Shown: positions 4,990-9,614 of the stretch, one piece after another | Numbering within the stretch: the stretch's first letter is position 1 | Layout of the letters: each line of letters begins with the position of its first letter | Assembly (NCBI GenBank): GCA_020438215.1 | Contig: JAGQUX010000023.1 | Location: 1 to 40,569, forward strand | Direction of reading: 5' to 3' | Origin: Armatimonadota bacterium | Lineage (GTDB): Bacteria; Armatimonadota; Fimbriimonadia; Fimbriimonadales; Fimbriimonadaceae | DNA: 40,569 nt | Program-made: the position numbers and the translations under genes | The notes under the pieces: model-generated | Told to the model about the DNA's origin: nothing | Database searches by the model: none | What the model saw: only the letters and a program-made list of their open reading frames with translations

Positions 4990-5865
4990 CTACTTCCGAA
5001 AAGCCAGGTTGCGGATCGCCTCTTCGAAGTTGCCCGGCTCCCGCACAACCCGCTGACCAAAATAAACCAGCCCCATATTGAACCGGAGCATACTGACGCG
5101 TGCAATCCGAGCGTATTTACCGATCTTGCCCGCCAGAACCCAGTCCGCCGCCTTCGTGATGTTGTCTTCCGGCACAATGTACGGCGCAATCATCCGCGTC
5201 CATCGATCTACGGGAAGGTAGTAAATCCGATCTGCCGGATGAACATTCCGTTCCAGACCGAACAGATAAACAATATCGCGCAGGAAAGTCGAAGTCGATT
5301 TCGGCCCAATCCCCCGAATATCCACAATCCGCTCAAACTGCGGTTCCAATCGTCCACTTTGAGCGACCCCATTCACAATCCAAGTGGCCAGGGAAGCCGT
5401 CGGGTCAAGATCATAGATCTCTTGGCATAACTCCAGCATCCCTTGAAGAGTCCCGCGATTCTGAACCTCGTTCGATTTCTTCTTTCGCTCCTGAGTCACT
5501 TCCTCAAAAGCTGTCCAGATCGCTTCACCATCTTCCTGCGCCAAAACCGACTCAAACGATCCACCCTGCAGCGACAACTCCAGAGCCTTCTGTGAATCTG
5601 CGGAAAGGTCGTCGCGGTCTTTCCCCCGCCGAGCAAATGCGTAGTGCCCAAAGAACACTCTCAGGGCCAAATAGGGGTCTTCCATCGCCTCACGAACCTC
5701 ATCTTCGTTCGCCTCGCGATTGTCAATGATCTTGCCCAAGCGGGAAACAAGGAATTCATCGACGTAGGAATCAGCGTACTCGCCCGTGATGTGGCGATAA
5801 ACGCGTACTATTTCGGGCGGTAATTCAATCCGTTCCCGTTGCTCATATTCCGGTTGGTTCGGCAT
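4990..5865 (-). CDS. Divergent HhH-GPD DNA glycosylase-like protein
   Basis: A 291-aa protein that I do not recognise as a named family. Its C-terminal half carries a helix-hairpin-helix core, RIVDIRGIGPKSTSTFLRD (179-197), followed 23 residues later by LPVDRW (217-222). In Ogg1/Nth-type glycosylases the Lys of G(I/V)GxK and the Asp of PVD are the catalytic pair, and K189 and D220 fall at the matching places. A repair glycosylase/AP lyase is therefore plausible. No FeS Cys cluster is present. The acidic N-terminal half (1-130) shows nothing recognisable. A TTG at 5880 is possible, but the ATG at 5865 has AGAGA at good spacing, so that start is used. A GC-rich hairpin separates it from the upstream gene. 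Confidence 0.5.
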   Translation of the reverse strand: MPNQPEYEQRERIELPPEIVRVYRHITGEYADSYVDEFLVSRLGKIIDNREANEDEVREAMEDPYLALRVFFGHYAFARRGKDRDDLSADSQKALELSLQGGSFESVLAQEDGEAIWTAFEEVTQERKKKSNEVQNRGTLQGMLELCQEIYDLDPTASLATWIVNGVAQSGRLEPQFERIVDIRGIGPKSTSTFLRDIVYLFGLERNVHPADRIYYLPVDRWTRMIAPYIVPEDNITKAADWVLAGKIGKYARIARVSMLRFNMGLVYFGQRVVREPGNFEEAIRNLAFRK

Positions 5866-5881
5866 TAAATGTTCTCTCAAA

Positions 5882-5904: not shown

Positions 5905-7257
5905 TTAGAACGGAGCGTTATTGGACATGTTGGTGACAACCGGCAAAGTCGGTGTTTGGATAGAACCGCCTCCACCAGATTGGGTGTCACCGCCTCGACG
6001 AATCGCATTAAAGACCTGCCACGCAAATTCGGTGACCGGGATTTCGTTGAGGTGGAACATTTCCAAAGTTTGTGTCATTGCCGCAACATAAAGACCAACT
6101 TTCTGTCCGTCTCGTGATGTGGTGTAGACATTGGCTCCGGCAATTGTTGCATGCGATTCGGCGACAGAACCCACCACCGAACGCTCACTTCCAAACGCAC
6201 TGCCAGAAACGACTGTGCGGTGCGTTTGATTGAAAACAAACAGCTTCGCGCCCTTATCAACAAACATTTGTTGCAGGTCGCGCTTCTTCAACATCGTCGA
6301 AGTATCTTTCGCGAATTCCGTATTGACGCCGGCATAGAAATCAACACCGTCAACATTGGTCGCCGCCCCTGAGAAGAACACGAACACCGTGCTATCTCCG
6401 CCGACTTTTTCCGCAATGGCTTGCGCCGCTTCCTTCATCTGCGCGGAAGTCGCGTTTTTCAAAACTACGATGTTCCCTTCAGCGTAGCCTGCGTGTTGCA
6501 TCAGAGCCGCTTTCAAAAGATCAACGTCGGTTGCGCTGGTTTCAACCTTCAAATCATCCATCTTGGAATCAGAATTCCCGATGAGAAGGGCGAATTTGGT
6601 GTTCAGCACCGGAACTGGTGTGCTGAGAATCACATCGCGATAAGCTTCTTCGTTGCCCGCCTTCACCTTGATTAAGGAGCCGGCACCGTTCGGCGAACCA
6701 GCAACGGATGCGCCCGTACCTGTATTGCTCTGCTGACCAGGCGCGGTTGCATTGACAACTTCATTGGCTTGGAGGAAGCTGGTATCCACCTTCCAATCCA
6801 TGCCCTTTTCAGGCTCGTAATCTGCCATTCGCGCTTGAGTACCCAACGCAGAATAGATGTTCGTCAAAATCTTGAATGCTTCGGCAGACCGCTGACCTTT
6901 GGTGATCAACGCTTCCAATTCACCTGCAGCTGTCCCGAACAGACGATTCTTCTCGTCCTTATCTTCCATCATTGTGCCGAGGCGGTAAGCAGAGTAGGCG
7001 GCACCGAAATTGGGAGAATAAAGTGCGCCGGCGCGCCATACGCGCGGTTCCGTGATTGGCCCAGGAAGGCGAGTCGATTGGTTGGAATCATCCCCACGAT
7101 CTGCAACCGCTGCAAGGAACGCATCCCGAGCTTCCGCCCAGTTACCTTCACTCGCTGCTTTCAGAGCGCGGTCGTATTCCGTCTGCCAGGCTTGGGCTTG
7201 GCTCATCGCCGCCAAGACCAGCAAACCGCATGCAATCACAACTTTTCCCAATTTCAT
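5905..7257 (-). CDS. Secreted caspase-fold protein lacking the catalytic His and Cys
   Basis: A 450-aa protein. Residues 1-23 form a signal peptide ending AQA, residues 25-150 look helical and TPR-like, and 165-200 is a low-complexity Gly/Ser/Asn linker. From about 221 it follows the peptidase C14 (caspase/metacaspase) pattern: KFALLIGNSD, then ATDVDLLKAAL, a strand-and-helix unit, and VFVFFSGAAT. In active members this last motif reads FFSGHG; here the His position is A298. The next core strand, KLFVFNQTHRT, aligns with the usual VLDACHSG, so the Cys position is T345. Both catalytic residues are therefore absent. It is the third gene of an operon with an Ig-like protein and an outer-membrane barrel. 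The ATG at 7257 is preferred to a GTG at 7272 because it fits the signal peptide. Confidence 0.6.
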   Translation of the reverse strand: MKLGKVVIACGLLVLAAMSQAQAWQTEYDRALKAASEGNWAEARDAFLAAVADRGDDSNQSTRLPGPITEPRVWRAGALYSPNFGAAYSAYRLGTMMEDKDEKNRLFGTAAGELEALITKGQRSAEAFKILTNIYSALGTQARMADYEPEKGMDWKVDTSFLQANEVVNATAPGQQSNTGTGASVAGSPNGAGSLIKVKAGNEEAYRDVILSTPVPVLNTKFALLIGNSDSKMDDLKVETSATDVDLLKAALMQHAGYAEGNIVVLKNATSAQMKEAAQAIAEKVGGDSTVFVFFSGAATNVDGVDFYAGVNTEFAKDTSTMLKKRDLQQMFVDKGAKLFVFNQTHRTVVSGSAFGSERSVVGSVAESHATIAGANVYTTSRDGQKVGLYVAAMTQTLEMFHLNEIPVTEFAWQVFNAIRRGGDTQSGGGGSIQTPTLPVVTNMSNNAPF

Positions 7258-7289: not shown

Positions 7290-8426
7290 TCAGTTTTTGG
7301 GTTTGTATGTCAATCCCAGAGCGACATCAAATGGGCCGCCACCATTCGCCTTTGCAAAGCTCAAATCCACCGTGTAGTCCGCGTTGTTCGGGCGATATCC
7401 CAAACCAAACGTCCAAGAGTTTCGGTCGGAGTATCCATCGCCGCCACCAGGAACAAAAGCGTATCCAAATCGCACCGGATACCGAACGCCATCGCGGAAA
7501 ACGTTGTATTCCAATCCAAAGCTTCCGGCAAGAACATCTTTGCGGCTGATCACTTTATTGCGCTGACCGCCAAAGTAGTAATCGGCTTGAACGCTCCAGA
7601 TCATGTAGTCCTGGTCGCCAAAGTAGCCGTCGCGTCGTGCAGCGACACCAGCAGAAAGCTTCCCAGGAATGCGATCGTAAATCGCCGAAGAAGAACCGTT
7701 CCCACTGATATCAATCGGAGTGCGAACGCTTGCGCCCCAAACCATATCTTGGTTTACGTCTCCCTGAATTCCCGCGACAAGACCAACACCGAGCCCGTTG
7801 CCCGAGTTATCGCTAGAAACCGTACCCACCTGGGTGTTGCCGTTGAACAACTGATAATCTTGTGTGGAACGAACGTATTGGTTGGCAATCACAAGGCCGT
7901 AACCAATGTTCTGGGTGCCTTTGCGCTCGCCGTAAGAAATCGCGAAGTAATCGGTCTGAGCGGTGGTTTCTTCTACCAAGTTGCGCGCGCTCAACCCGCC
8001 GTCGTTCAAGTTATTACCGACTGTCTGATTCTTGATGTACCCGCCCACGGTGTAGCTGACTCCCAGAGTGCCTTTCTTAAACGGCATCGTGTAACCAACG
8101 TGAGTCAAACCATATTTGCCACCGCGATTCGCTGTGACATTGGTGCGGTTATTCAAATCGCCAGATGCAACGGTTCGGCTCTCCGGCATGGTGCGAAGGT
8201 TGACGCCAAGTGACTTATCGCCCACATAAGCAAGGCCAGCAGGGTTATCCAAAGCAGAATTGGTGCTCGCATCAGTGACTCGAGTCGAACCACCAACACC
8301 CATTGCTCGACCGCCACTATCAAAAGCGTTCAAAAGGTCAGCGATCTGCGCATTCGCTACAACCGACATTGCGAGCGCGGATACCGCAACTGCAACTTTC
8401 AGCGTCCCTGCATTTTTTGAATTCAT
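7290..8426 (-). CDS. Outer-membrane beta-barrel protein, PorV/FadL-like
   Basis: A 378-aa exported protein with a signal peptide (residues 1-26, ending VVANAQ). It starts its mature part with LLNAFDSGGRAMGVGGSTRVTD..ALDNPAGLAY, the N-terminal plug pattern of PorV/PorQ and FadL/OmpP1-type barrels. The rest alternates polar and aromatic residues as amphipathic strands (for example LGVSYTVGGYI, FGLGYRPN) and closes with the strand VALGLTYKPKN. It is strong evidence for a diderm envelope. AGGAAA lies about 10 nt before the ATG. It is sandwiched between the Ig-like gene (43 nt) and the pseudo-caspase (32 nt), so the three probably act together at the outer membrane. Cargo or ligand is unknown. Confidence 0.75.
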   Translation of the reverse strand: MNSKNAGTLKVAVAVSALAMSVVANAQIADLLNAFDSGGRAMGVGGSTRVTDASTNSALDNPAGLAYVGDKSLGVNLRTMPESRTVASGDLNNRTNVTANRGGKYGLTHVGYTMPFKKGTLGVSYTVGGYIKNQTVGNNLNDGGLSARNLVEETTAQTDYFAISYGERKGTQNIGYGLVIANQYVRSTQDYQLFNGNTQVGTVSSDNSGNGLGVGLVAGIQGDVNQDMVWGASVRTPIDISGNGSSSAIYDRIPGKLSAGVAARRDGYFGDQDYMIWSVQADYYFGGQRNKVISRKDVLAGSFGLEYNVFRDGVRYPVRFGYAFVPGGGDGYSDRNSWTFGLGYRPNNADYTVDLSFAKANGGGPFDVALGLTYKPKN

Positions 8427-8469: not shown

Positions 8470-9585
8470 CTATTTTCCGTTCCTCTGCGCACGACTACGG
8501 GAACTTTGACGACGCTCAGCTTGAGCCTTGATCGCTCGGAAACGTGATCGTTCACCAACTCGCTCTACGGTATCGGAATTCACCGGCTGAGGCGGCTCGA
8601 CCGGAGTCGTGTTCACAGCGCGACCAGATTGAACCGTCACTTCTTGCCGAAGCGCTTGGTTGCCCGCACGATCTCGAACATCCACCACAATCTTGAAAGC
8701 ACTCGGCAAATCAGATGTGTCGCGGATGCGTCCAACCCAATTCAAAGTGTTACCGTTGCTATTTGTACCAATACGAGCAACGCGAGCAAGCAAATTGCCT
8801 TGAAGATCGGTGATTGTCACTTCCACGCCGCGAGGGTCAACCGCATTAGCAAATTGATCTTGCACATCAATAACTACCGGAATCCGTTGTCCAGGTCGAA
8901 GATCCAGGTCACCCGTCGGGGAAAGCACGGTCGAACTCGGCGCTAATCGGTCAATCGTCACGTTGAACGACTTATTAGCCCGGTTTCCCGCTTTATCTTC
9001 AATCGAAATATCGATGTTGCGTTGTCCGTCCGAAGAAATCGCAGAAGTATCCCATTGAACAATTGCGGTAGAGGTATTGCCAGTGTTGTTCGGGATGTCG
9101 TTGCCTGCAACTTTCACACGCCACTCCTCAATGTTATCTTCATCAAAAAGCGCGCTGATCAAAACCATATCGCGGACAAAAACGCCGTTGATCGGGTTGA
9201 AATTGATAAATTCTGGGTTCACAACGTCAACCGTCACATTCAGCGGAGTGGGAACGTTGTAGCTATTGCCTGGTTCAGTTGCCGTAATCGCCAGCGTGTA
9301 TGGGCCGTTCGGTTGAGTGTCAGCAAAGTTCAGGTTCAGCGTTCCGCTTGCTTTACCCGCCGTATCTGGCGTGACATCAATGAAAACCGTCACCGAGATC
9401 GTTGGGTTGGCAACCTGCGTCGCCTTTGCAGTCACCCTGACCTTTTGAACAGCATTGGTGATATTGAACCGAATCTGGTTCGAACGACCAAGGAAATCAC
9501 CATCGGCTGGTTCCGTAATTGTAATCGTCCCTGCAAAAGAAACCGCAGAGAGCAAAAGCCCGGCTAGAAAAGCAAAAGTTCTCAT
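8470..9585 (-). CDS. Secreted Ig-like repeat protein with basic C-terminus
   Basis: A 371-aa exported protein with a signal peptide (about 1-18, MRTFAFLAGLLL..AVSFA). Three bacterial Ig-like beta-sandwich modules can be traced: about 19-120 (starting TITITEPADGDFL), 120-215 (ending NKSFNVTIDRLAP) and 215-320 (ending ALRQEVTVQS). Phrases such as SIEDKAGNRAN and VDVRDRAGNQAL are typical of Ig-like or Big-type domains. The tail (about 335-371) is rich in Arg, Ser and Gln and ends RSRAQRNGK, unlike a sorting signal I know. The ATG at 9585 is preceded by GGGGAGCGG at good spacing, so it is chosen over an upstream GTG. It leads the barrel and pseudo-caspase genes. Confidence 0.65.
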   Translation of the reverse strand: MRTFAFLAGLLLSAVSFAGTITITEPADGDFLGRSNQIRFNITNAVQKVRVTAKATQVANPTISVTVFIDVTPDTAGKASGTLNLNFADTQPNGPYTLAITATEPGNSYNVPTPLNVTVDVVNPEFINFNPINGVFVRDMVLISALFDEDNIEEWRVKVAGNDIPNNTGNTSTAIVQWDTSAISSDGQRNIDISIEDKAGNRANKSFNVTIDRLAPSSTVLSPTGDLDLRPGQRIPVVIDVQDQFANAVDPRGVEVTITDLQGNLLARVARIGTNSNGNTLNWVGRIRDTSDLPSAFKIVVDVRDRAGNQALRQEVTVQSGRAVNTTPVEPPQPVNSDTVERVGERSRFRAIKAQAERRQSSRSRAQRNGK

Positions 9586-9614
9586 AGCAATACCGCTCCC
9601 CACTATACCTTTTC

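Follow-up and report, generated by a model that had tools for sequence, protein, structure and literature searches.

We analyzed a window of 40,569 nucleotides of DNA from an Armatimonadota bacterium (contig JAGQUX010000023.1; all positions are those of the whole window) and followed up one of its genes, a pseudo-caspase gene referred to here as PCASP. The reading that we favor, with moderate confidence, is that PCASP is a family-wide exported pseudo-orthocaspase that docks in a complex with an outer-membrane barrel and an Ig-like protein encoded in the same cassette. The gene, identified by its open frame, its PF00656 match and its orthologues, is the last of the cassette and occupies positions 5905–7257 on the minus strand, with the ATG at 7257 and the stop codon at 5907–5905, and it encodes 450 residues. 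The plus strand of the same interval has no open frame and carries several stops. The coordinates given by an earlier sequence-only reading were thus right, and the strand of the gene is minus.

The protein begins with a putative signal peptide (residues ~1–22, MKLGKVVIACGLLVLAAMSQAQ; positions 7192–7257), recognized by eye and from the cleavage-site pattern of the family. Cleavage was read by eye between MKLGKVVIACGLLVLAAMSQAQA and W, and a small-x-small site lies ahead of the invariant W24 in 74 of the 77 PCASP members; both features point to the secretion that the sequence-only reading had proposed. The N-terminal helical domain (residues ~23–165; 6763–7191), delimited by invariant columns, predicted helices and TPR_2 matches, had been described as TPR-like, and this description agrees with the AlphaFold2 model, in which helices 23–36, 40–53, 82–96, 100–119 and 125–138 form TPR-like hairpins. 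Pfam TPR_2 is matched by 5 of 36 members, and residues W24, Y28, A43, F47, R54, D57, W74, R75, G77, Y88 and D158 are invariant in a 27-member alignment. A linker (residues ~166–216; 6610–6762), recognized from the pLDDT profile as mostly low-confidence and falling below 50 at residues 170–200, leads to the caspase-fold domain (residues 217–450; 5908–6609), which is delimited by pLDDT and the match to MALT1 and extends to the last residue. All of these features are encoded on the minus strand.

Caspase fold and active site

Residues 221–399 of PCASP match the Pfam family PF00656 (Peptidase_C14) with 41.1 bits, where the cut-off is 21.4, which places the resemblance to caspases well beyond chance, and 27 of 36 members match the same family at E 0.01. 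A scan of PCASP with hmmscan up to E 1 listed PF00656 alone, with no match to Peptidase C25. The AlphaFold2 model, built from the 36-member alignment, has a mean pLDDT of 86.7, and most of residues 221–420 exceed 90. In a structural comparison with VIA-align, the closest solved structure was the MALT1 paracaspase (3uo8_C; Z 23.0, 3.1 Å, 210 residues aligned to residues 217–450 of the model), and plant metacaspase 4 scored Z 21.4. Since the range aligned to MALT1 ends at the last residue of PCASP, the fold appears to be complete rather than cut. Furthermore, a profile of the 36 PCASP orthologues recovered MALT1 and metacaspases among the PDB sequences at E 2e-5 and weaker; such a profile was required, as a phmmer search of the PDB with the single protein gave no match. 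The sequence-only reading had proposed a preserved caspase fold on the basis of the motifs KFALLIGNSD, VFVFFSGAAT and KLFVFNQTHRT, with structure prediction as a check. All three motifs are present, and the prediction, together with the Pfam match and the similarity to MALT1, confirms the fold.

The same reading had named Ala298 and Thr345 as the replacements of the catalytic His and Cys, and this numbering is exact. The site residues are S296-G297-A298 and F342-N343-Q344-T345, with the codon of A298 at 6364–6366 and that of T345 at 6223–6225 on the minus strand. The profile register, which is independent of the earlier reading, sets the G-H-G of MALT1 opposite "Gag" (A298) and its D-M-C-R opposite "fqvn" (T345), and the orthologue columns agree. 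Among 76 aligned orthologues from the order, the His column holds V (25), A (21), Q (6), S (5), P (5), T (4) and others and is never H, and the Cys column holds V (38), A (21), T (9), C (4), S (3) and M (1). The four orthologues with a Cys show Y, T, V or Q in the His column, so that the His/Cys pair occurs in none of the 76, and the dyads at the two positions are mostly VV, AV, VA or AA. The S1-pocket Asp of the DxC motif is N343 in the PCASP of the window and mostly F or Y across the family, in which an invariant [QE]-x-x-R (Q/E344, R347) stands in place of DxCxx. Around the dead site, G297, D306, Q/E344, R347, F355 and G356 are invariant or nearly so.

Could the missing dyad simply reflect a shifted alignment? 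The control caspase of the host genome has intact YFSGHG and DACRSG motifs, and a simple text scan of 22 other caspase homologues of the phylum found the GHG motif in 20 and the DxC motif in 20. Because these motifs are kept in other caspases of the phylum, the gap is a trait of the PCASP family and not a fault of the alignment. A shift, which the sequence-only reading had offered as its own possible undoing, is rejected by the profile alignment to MALT1, by the orthologues at positions 298 and 345 and by the active in-genome control. The features of an active C14 peptidase, His after SG and Cys in DxC, are both absent from PCASP, and the loss, as judged from the aligned sequences, is not a local lesion but family-wide. 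The claim that both catalytic residues are replaced, making PCASP a predicted pseudo-protease, thus held up and extends to the whole family.

The cassette and its active counterparts

Three genes on the same strand follow one another in the order Ig-like protein, FadL/PorV-fold outer-membrane barrel and PCASP, a setting that the sequence-only reading had missed, as it had the active version of the cassette elsewhere in the phylum. The first (8470–9603, minus strand) encodes an exported Ig-like protein of 377 aa that matches PF19077 (Big_13) with 39 bits. The second (7290–8426, minus strand), directly upstream of PCASP, encodes a 378-aa outer-membrane beta-barrel with an NPAGLA motif that was assigned to the FadL/PorV superfamily with AlphaFold2 and Foldseek. 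Its model shows the FadL barrel fold with an N-terminal plug and the NPA motif and matches E. coli FadL at a Foldseek E of 7.6e-12 and a TM of 0.63; its matches also include the BAM subunit BamG of Bacteroidota and PorV of the type IX secretion system (T9SS). At the sequence level, 7 of 31 barrel members match PF03349 at E ≤0.1 (best 2.9e-7), and the NCBIfam model PorV_fam (NF033709) gives 23.5 bits at E 3.5e-5, short of its cut-off of 90.

Of 77 loci, 73 have the barrel immediately upstream of PCASP and on its strand. Three of the remaining loci (L047, L069 and L085) have no adjacent barrel, and none was found elsewhere in their genomes; the fourth (L092) is at a contig end. The Ig-like gene is upstream of the barrel in most PCASP loci, and the gap between barrel and PCASP is short, with most loci at about −4 to 26 bases and values usually below 30. 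Within the family, 67 genomes have both PCASP and the barrel, 4 have PCASP only, 1 has the barrel only and 13 have neither (Fisher 4e-11, uncorrected for kinship). Several of the discordant genomes are fragmented assemblies. A mirror-tree analysis gave PCASP a partial r of 0.44 with the barrel and 0.55 with the Ig-like protein, a signal that is unspecific since a neighboring gene gives 0.43. The wider synteny around PCASP also includes HAD, PanK and PGM genes. An apparent fusion of barrel and PCASP in one relative (L102:4861-7326, an 822-aa frame) was rejected as an assembly artefact, because the junction falls in a run of N. Downstream of PCASP, on the minus strand at 4990–5880, lies a gene for a 296-aa protein that is a neighbor in many relatives; it matches no Pfam family above the cut-off and no NCBIfam model.

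Outside the order of PCASP, relatives of the barrel occur in four genomes. In two members of family f28, G175 and G179, the Ig-like protein, the barrel and a caspase are encoded in this order on one strand (L130:2262-11618 and L133:1741-11437), and the barrel and Ig-like proteins match the profiles of their counterparts in the PCASP family. The third protein is very large (1378 or 1520 aa) and exported, and it carries at its C-terminal end a caspase with intact FAGHG and DACR motifs. In G178, one contig terminates with an Ig fragment, the barrel and the first part of the third protein, in this order, and the caspase part is found on a separate contig; G118 has the Ig-like protein and the barrel without a caspase. 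Furthermore, the genome G087 has a second cassette beside the first (L134:2085-6772), in which the gene after the barrel encodes P0007, a protein with a length of at least 1077 aa; the contig ends before any caspase region. The N-terminal domain of PCASP resembles the N-terminus of P0007 convincingly (E 5.8e-6). In the comparison with the large active caspases, the resemblance is weak for P0008 (0.0045) and absent for P0006.

The same gene order, with an intact His/Cys caspase, exists in a second armatimonadotal family, and PCASP therefore probably descends from an active protease that was already working in the same cassette. In the tree of caspase domains, 21 of 21 sampled pseudo-caspases fall in one clade (support 100/99), which fits a single loss of the dyad. 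When the tree is left unrooted, PCASP and the two cassette caspases of G175 and G179 are split from 21 other active caspases by a branch with support 86/89. Descent from a cassette protease fits this tree, in which support is moderate and branches are long, and the direction of change is one that we infer. Common Ig repeats may account for much of the likeness of the Ig-like proteins between the PCASP and f28 lineages.

Other caspase homologues also occur in these genomes. The host genome has one besides PCASP (L001, G000:C34:24717-25421); it looks exported, has intact dyad motifs and carries a long C-terminal extension. More than 10 genomes of the family have, at like places, paired caspase homologues of ~330 aa and ~1350 aa about 3.7 kb apart (for example, L156 in G006:C1). 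No relative of the barrel or the Ig-like protein lies beside the pair at L156, and the genome of the window is without such a pair.

Distribution, selection and proposed role

Orthologues of PCASP are present in 81 of 151 relatives. The only order in which the architecture of a TPR-like domain followed by a dead caspase was found is that of the window: 71 of the 85 genomes in the window's family have it, as do three further families, and it was not found in family f2. PCASP is full-length in most of the family and has no internal stops. Across the six closest pairs, the whole protein has a dN/dS of 0.024–0.049 and the caspase domain one of 0.008–0.036, which is below the N-terminal part in every pair (Nei–Gojobori method, with synonymous changes of up to 1.3 per site). 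PCASP is under strong purifying selection.

What might a caspase that has lost its catalytic residues do in this setting? PCASP would pass through Sec to the periplasm or the cell surface, where the caspase fold would keep its shape and, having lost the His, the Cys and the S1-pocket Asp, be unable to cut. Within a complex formed with the barrel, which may be a membrane anchor or a channel, and with the Ig-like protein, which may be an extended surface or periplasmic partner, the caspase fold and the TPR-like domain would probably offer the docking surfaces. PCASP itself could then bind a peptide or protein as an adaptor or sensor. The same dead version stands beside the same barrel and Ig-like protein in nearly all relatives, and the fold has therefore probably switched from cutting to holding or sensing something in the cell envelope. 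The strong purifying selection, the invariant residues of the dead site and the fixed gene partners make a binding role plausible. In summary, PCASP probably binds rather than cuts, most likely as a binding subunit or scaffold of an assembly at the outer membrane, and the barrel and the Ig-like protein are its likeliest partners.

A periplasmic pseudo-protease that stands free, for example, one that senses or scavenges peptides or damaged proteins, could be co-transcribed with the barrel and the Ig-like gene and yet not bind their products. PCASP is soluble by sequence and has a TPR-like domain of its own, genomes of genus g31 and the genome G027 retain it without the barrel, and the synteny is wide enough (HAD, PanK, PGM) that the neighborhood by itself is no proof of a complex. 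However, the barrel keeps its place immediately upstream on the PCASP strand, whereas PGM, PanK and HAD are variable both in presence and in orientation relative to PCASP, and the same gene order is found again in a distant family whose caspase is active. We consider a free-standing PCASP unlikely, though worth keeping in mind.

That the caspase fold has become a new enzyme is a more doubtful proposal still. Such an enzyme would run another reaction through conserved residues such as D306, Q/E344 and R347, which are invariant or nearly so in 76 sequences and lie near the former active site in sequence. On the other hand, small hydrophobic residues fill the His and Cys columns, the invariance could be structural, and we know of no reaction that uses this residue set.

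It is quite improbable that PCASP regulates an active caspase of the same cell, with the dead copy pairing with a live one, as c-FLIP does for caspase-8. The host genome has one caspase with an active dyad (on C34) and many relatives have at least one, but G017 (assembled as one contig), G009, G021, G046 and G032 have PCASP and no other C14 match at E 0.001. An active caspase is thus not an obligatory partner, which makes an obligate-partner role unlikely.

The lost dyad might also suggest a functionless, decaying gene, an idea that is hardly credible and is rejected by the selection test, as the gene is mostly full-length without internal stops and dN/dS is 0.02–0.05 in the six closest pairs. 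A role in a defense system was likewise set aside, as PADLOC gives a generic caspase match alone (E 2e-5) and the protein is exported.

To our knowledge, most bacterial pseudo-caspases have no known partner, and the envelope biology of this bacterial lineage is almost unstudied. The conserved cassette suggests partners for PCASP, and what appears to be one and the same cassette exists within a single phylum in both an active and an inactive form. Consequently, the role of a caspase fold after cutting becomes testable with a defined protein pair.

Comparison with known systems

Pseudo-orthocaspases are a known bacterial kind: the survey of Klemencic et al. (2019, PMC6426788) counted 858 among 9,994 orthocaspases. 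PCASP, with a bacterial p20-type domain and replaced dyad residues, is a pseudo-orthocaspase by the definition used there. A separate p10 sequence domain would mark a metacaspase instead; at the level of fold, PCASP extends as far as the MALT1 caspase domain does. The surveyed proteins share with PCASP the p20-type caspase fold without the His-Cys dyad, are mainly from Alphaproteobacteria and Cyanobacteria and have mostly YS, YA, FS, QC or HA dyads; some carry TPRs, which in the FS type follow p20 (PMC6426788). PCASP differs in its VV, AV, VA and AA dyads, in a TPR-like domain that precedes the caspase fold, in its predicted export and in its place in an outer-membrane cassette. The term "Armatimonad" is absent from the survey (PMC6426788), and a literature search on Armatimonadota with caspase found no relevant paper. 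The export, architecture, residue pattern and cassette of PCASP were not found described in the literature and are new relative to known pseudo-orthocaspases. MALT1 and the plant metacaspases share the fold but are active cysteine proteases, whereas PCASP has other residues in place of the His, Cys and S1 Asp. The f28 cassette (G175, G179) has the same order and strand as the PCASP cassette but a large third protein with an intact HG/DAC caspase.

In the attachment complex of type IX secretion, the caspase-like C25 protein PorU, a sortase, works with the FadL-family barrel PorV on the outer membrane. The cassette barrel is likewise FadL-fold and weakly PorV-like, but PCASP matches C14 and not C25, and the barrel stays far below the PorV_fam cut-off. 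Searches of the genome for SprA (PF14349) and C25, run without a positive control, gave no match, and for SprA no control genome matched either. In the BAM complex of Bacteroidota, the FadL-family barrel BamG is not a transporter and docks a secreted partner, the surface lipoprotein BamH (PMC12611786), in a report from which the word "caspase" is absent. Both this system and the PCASP cassette have a FadL-family barrel, and they differ in phylum and gene order. More speculatively, and only as a tentative proposal, the cassette may be an outer-membrane machine of the Armatimonadota that arose independently and resembles PorU–PorV or BamG–BamH, in which a caspase has turned into a structural or ligand-reading subunit on a FadL-type barrel, with its live and dead states both present in the phylum.
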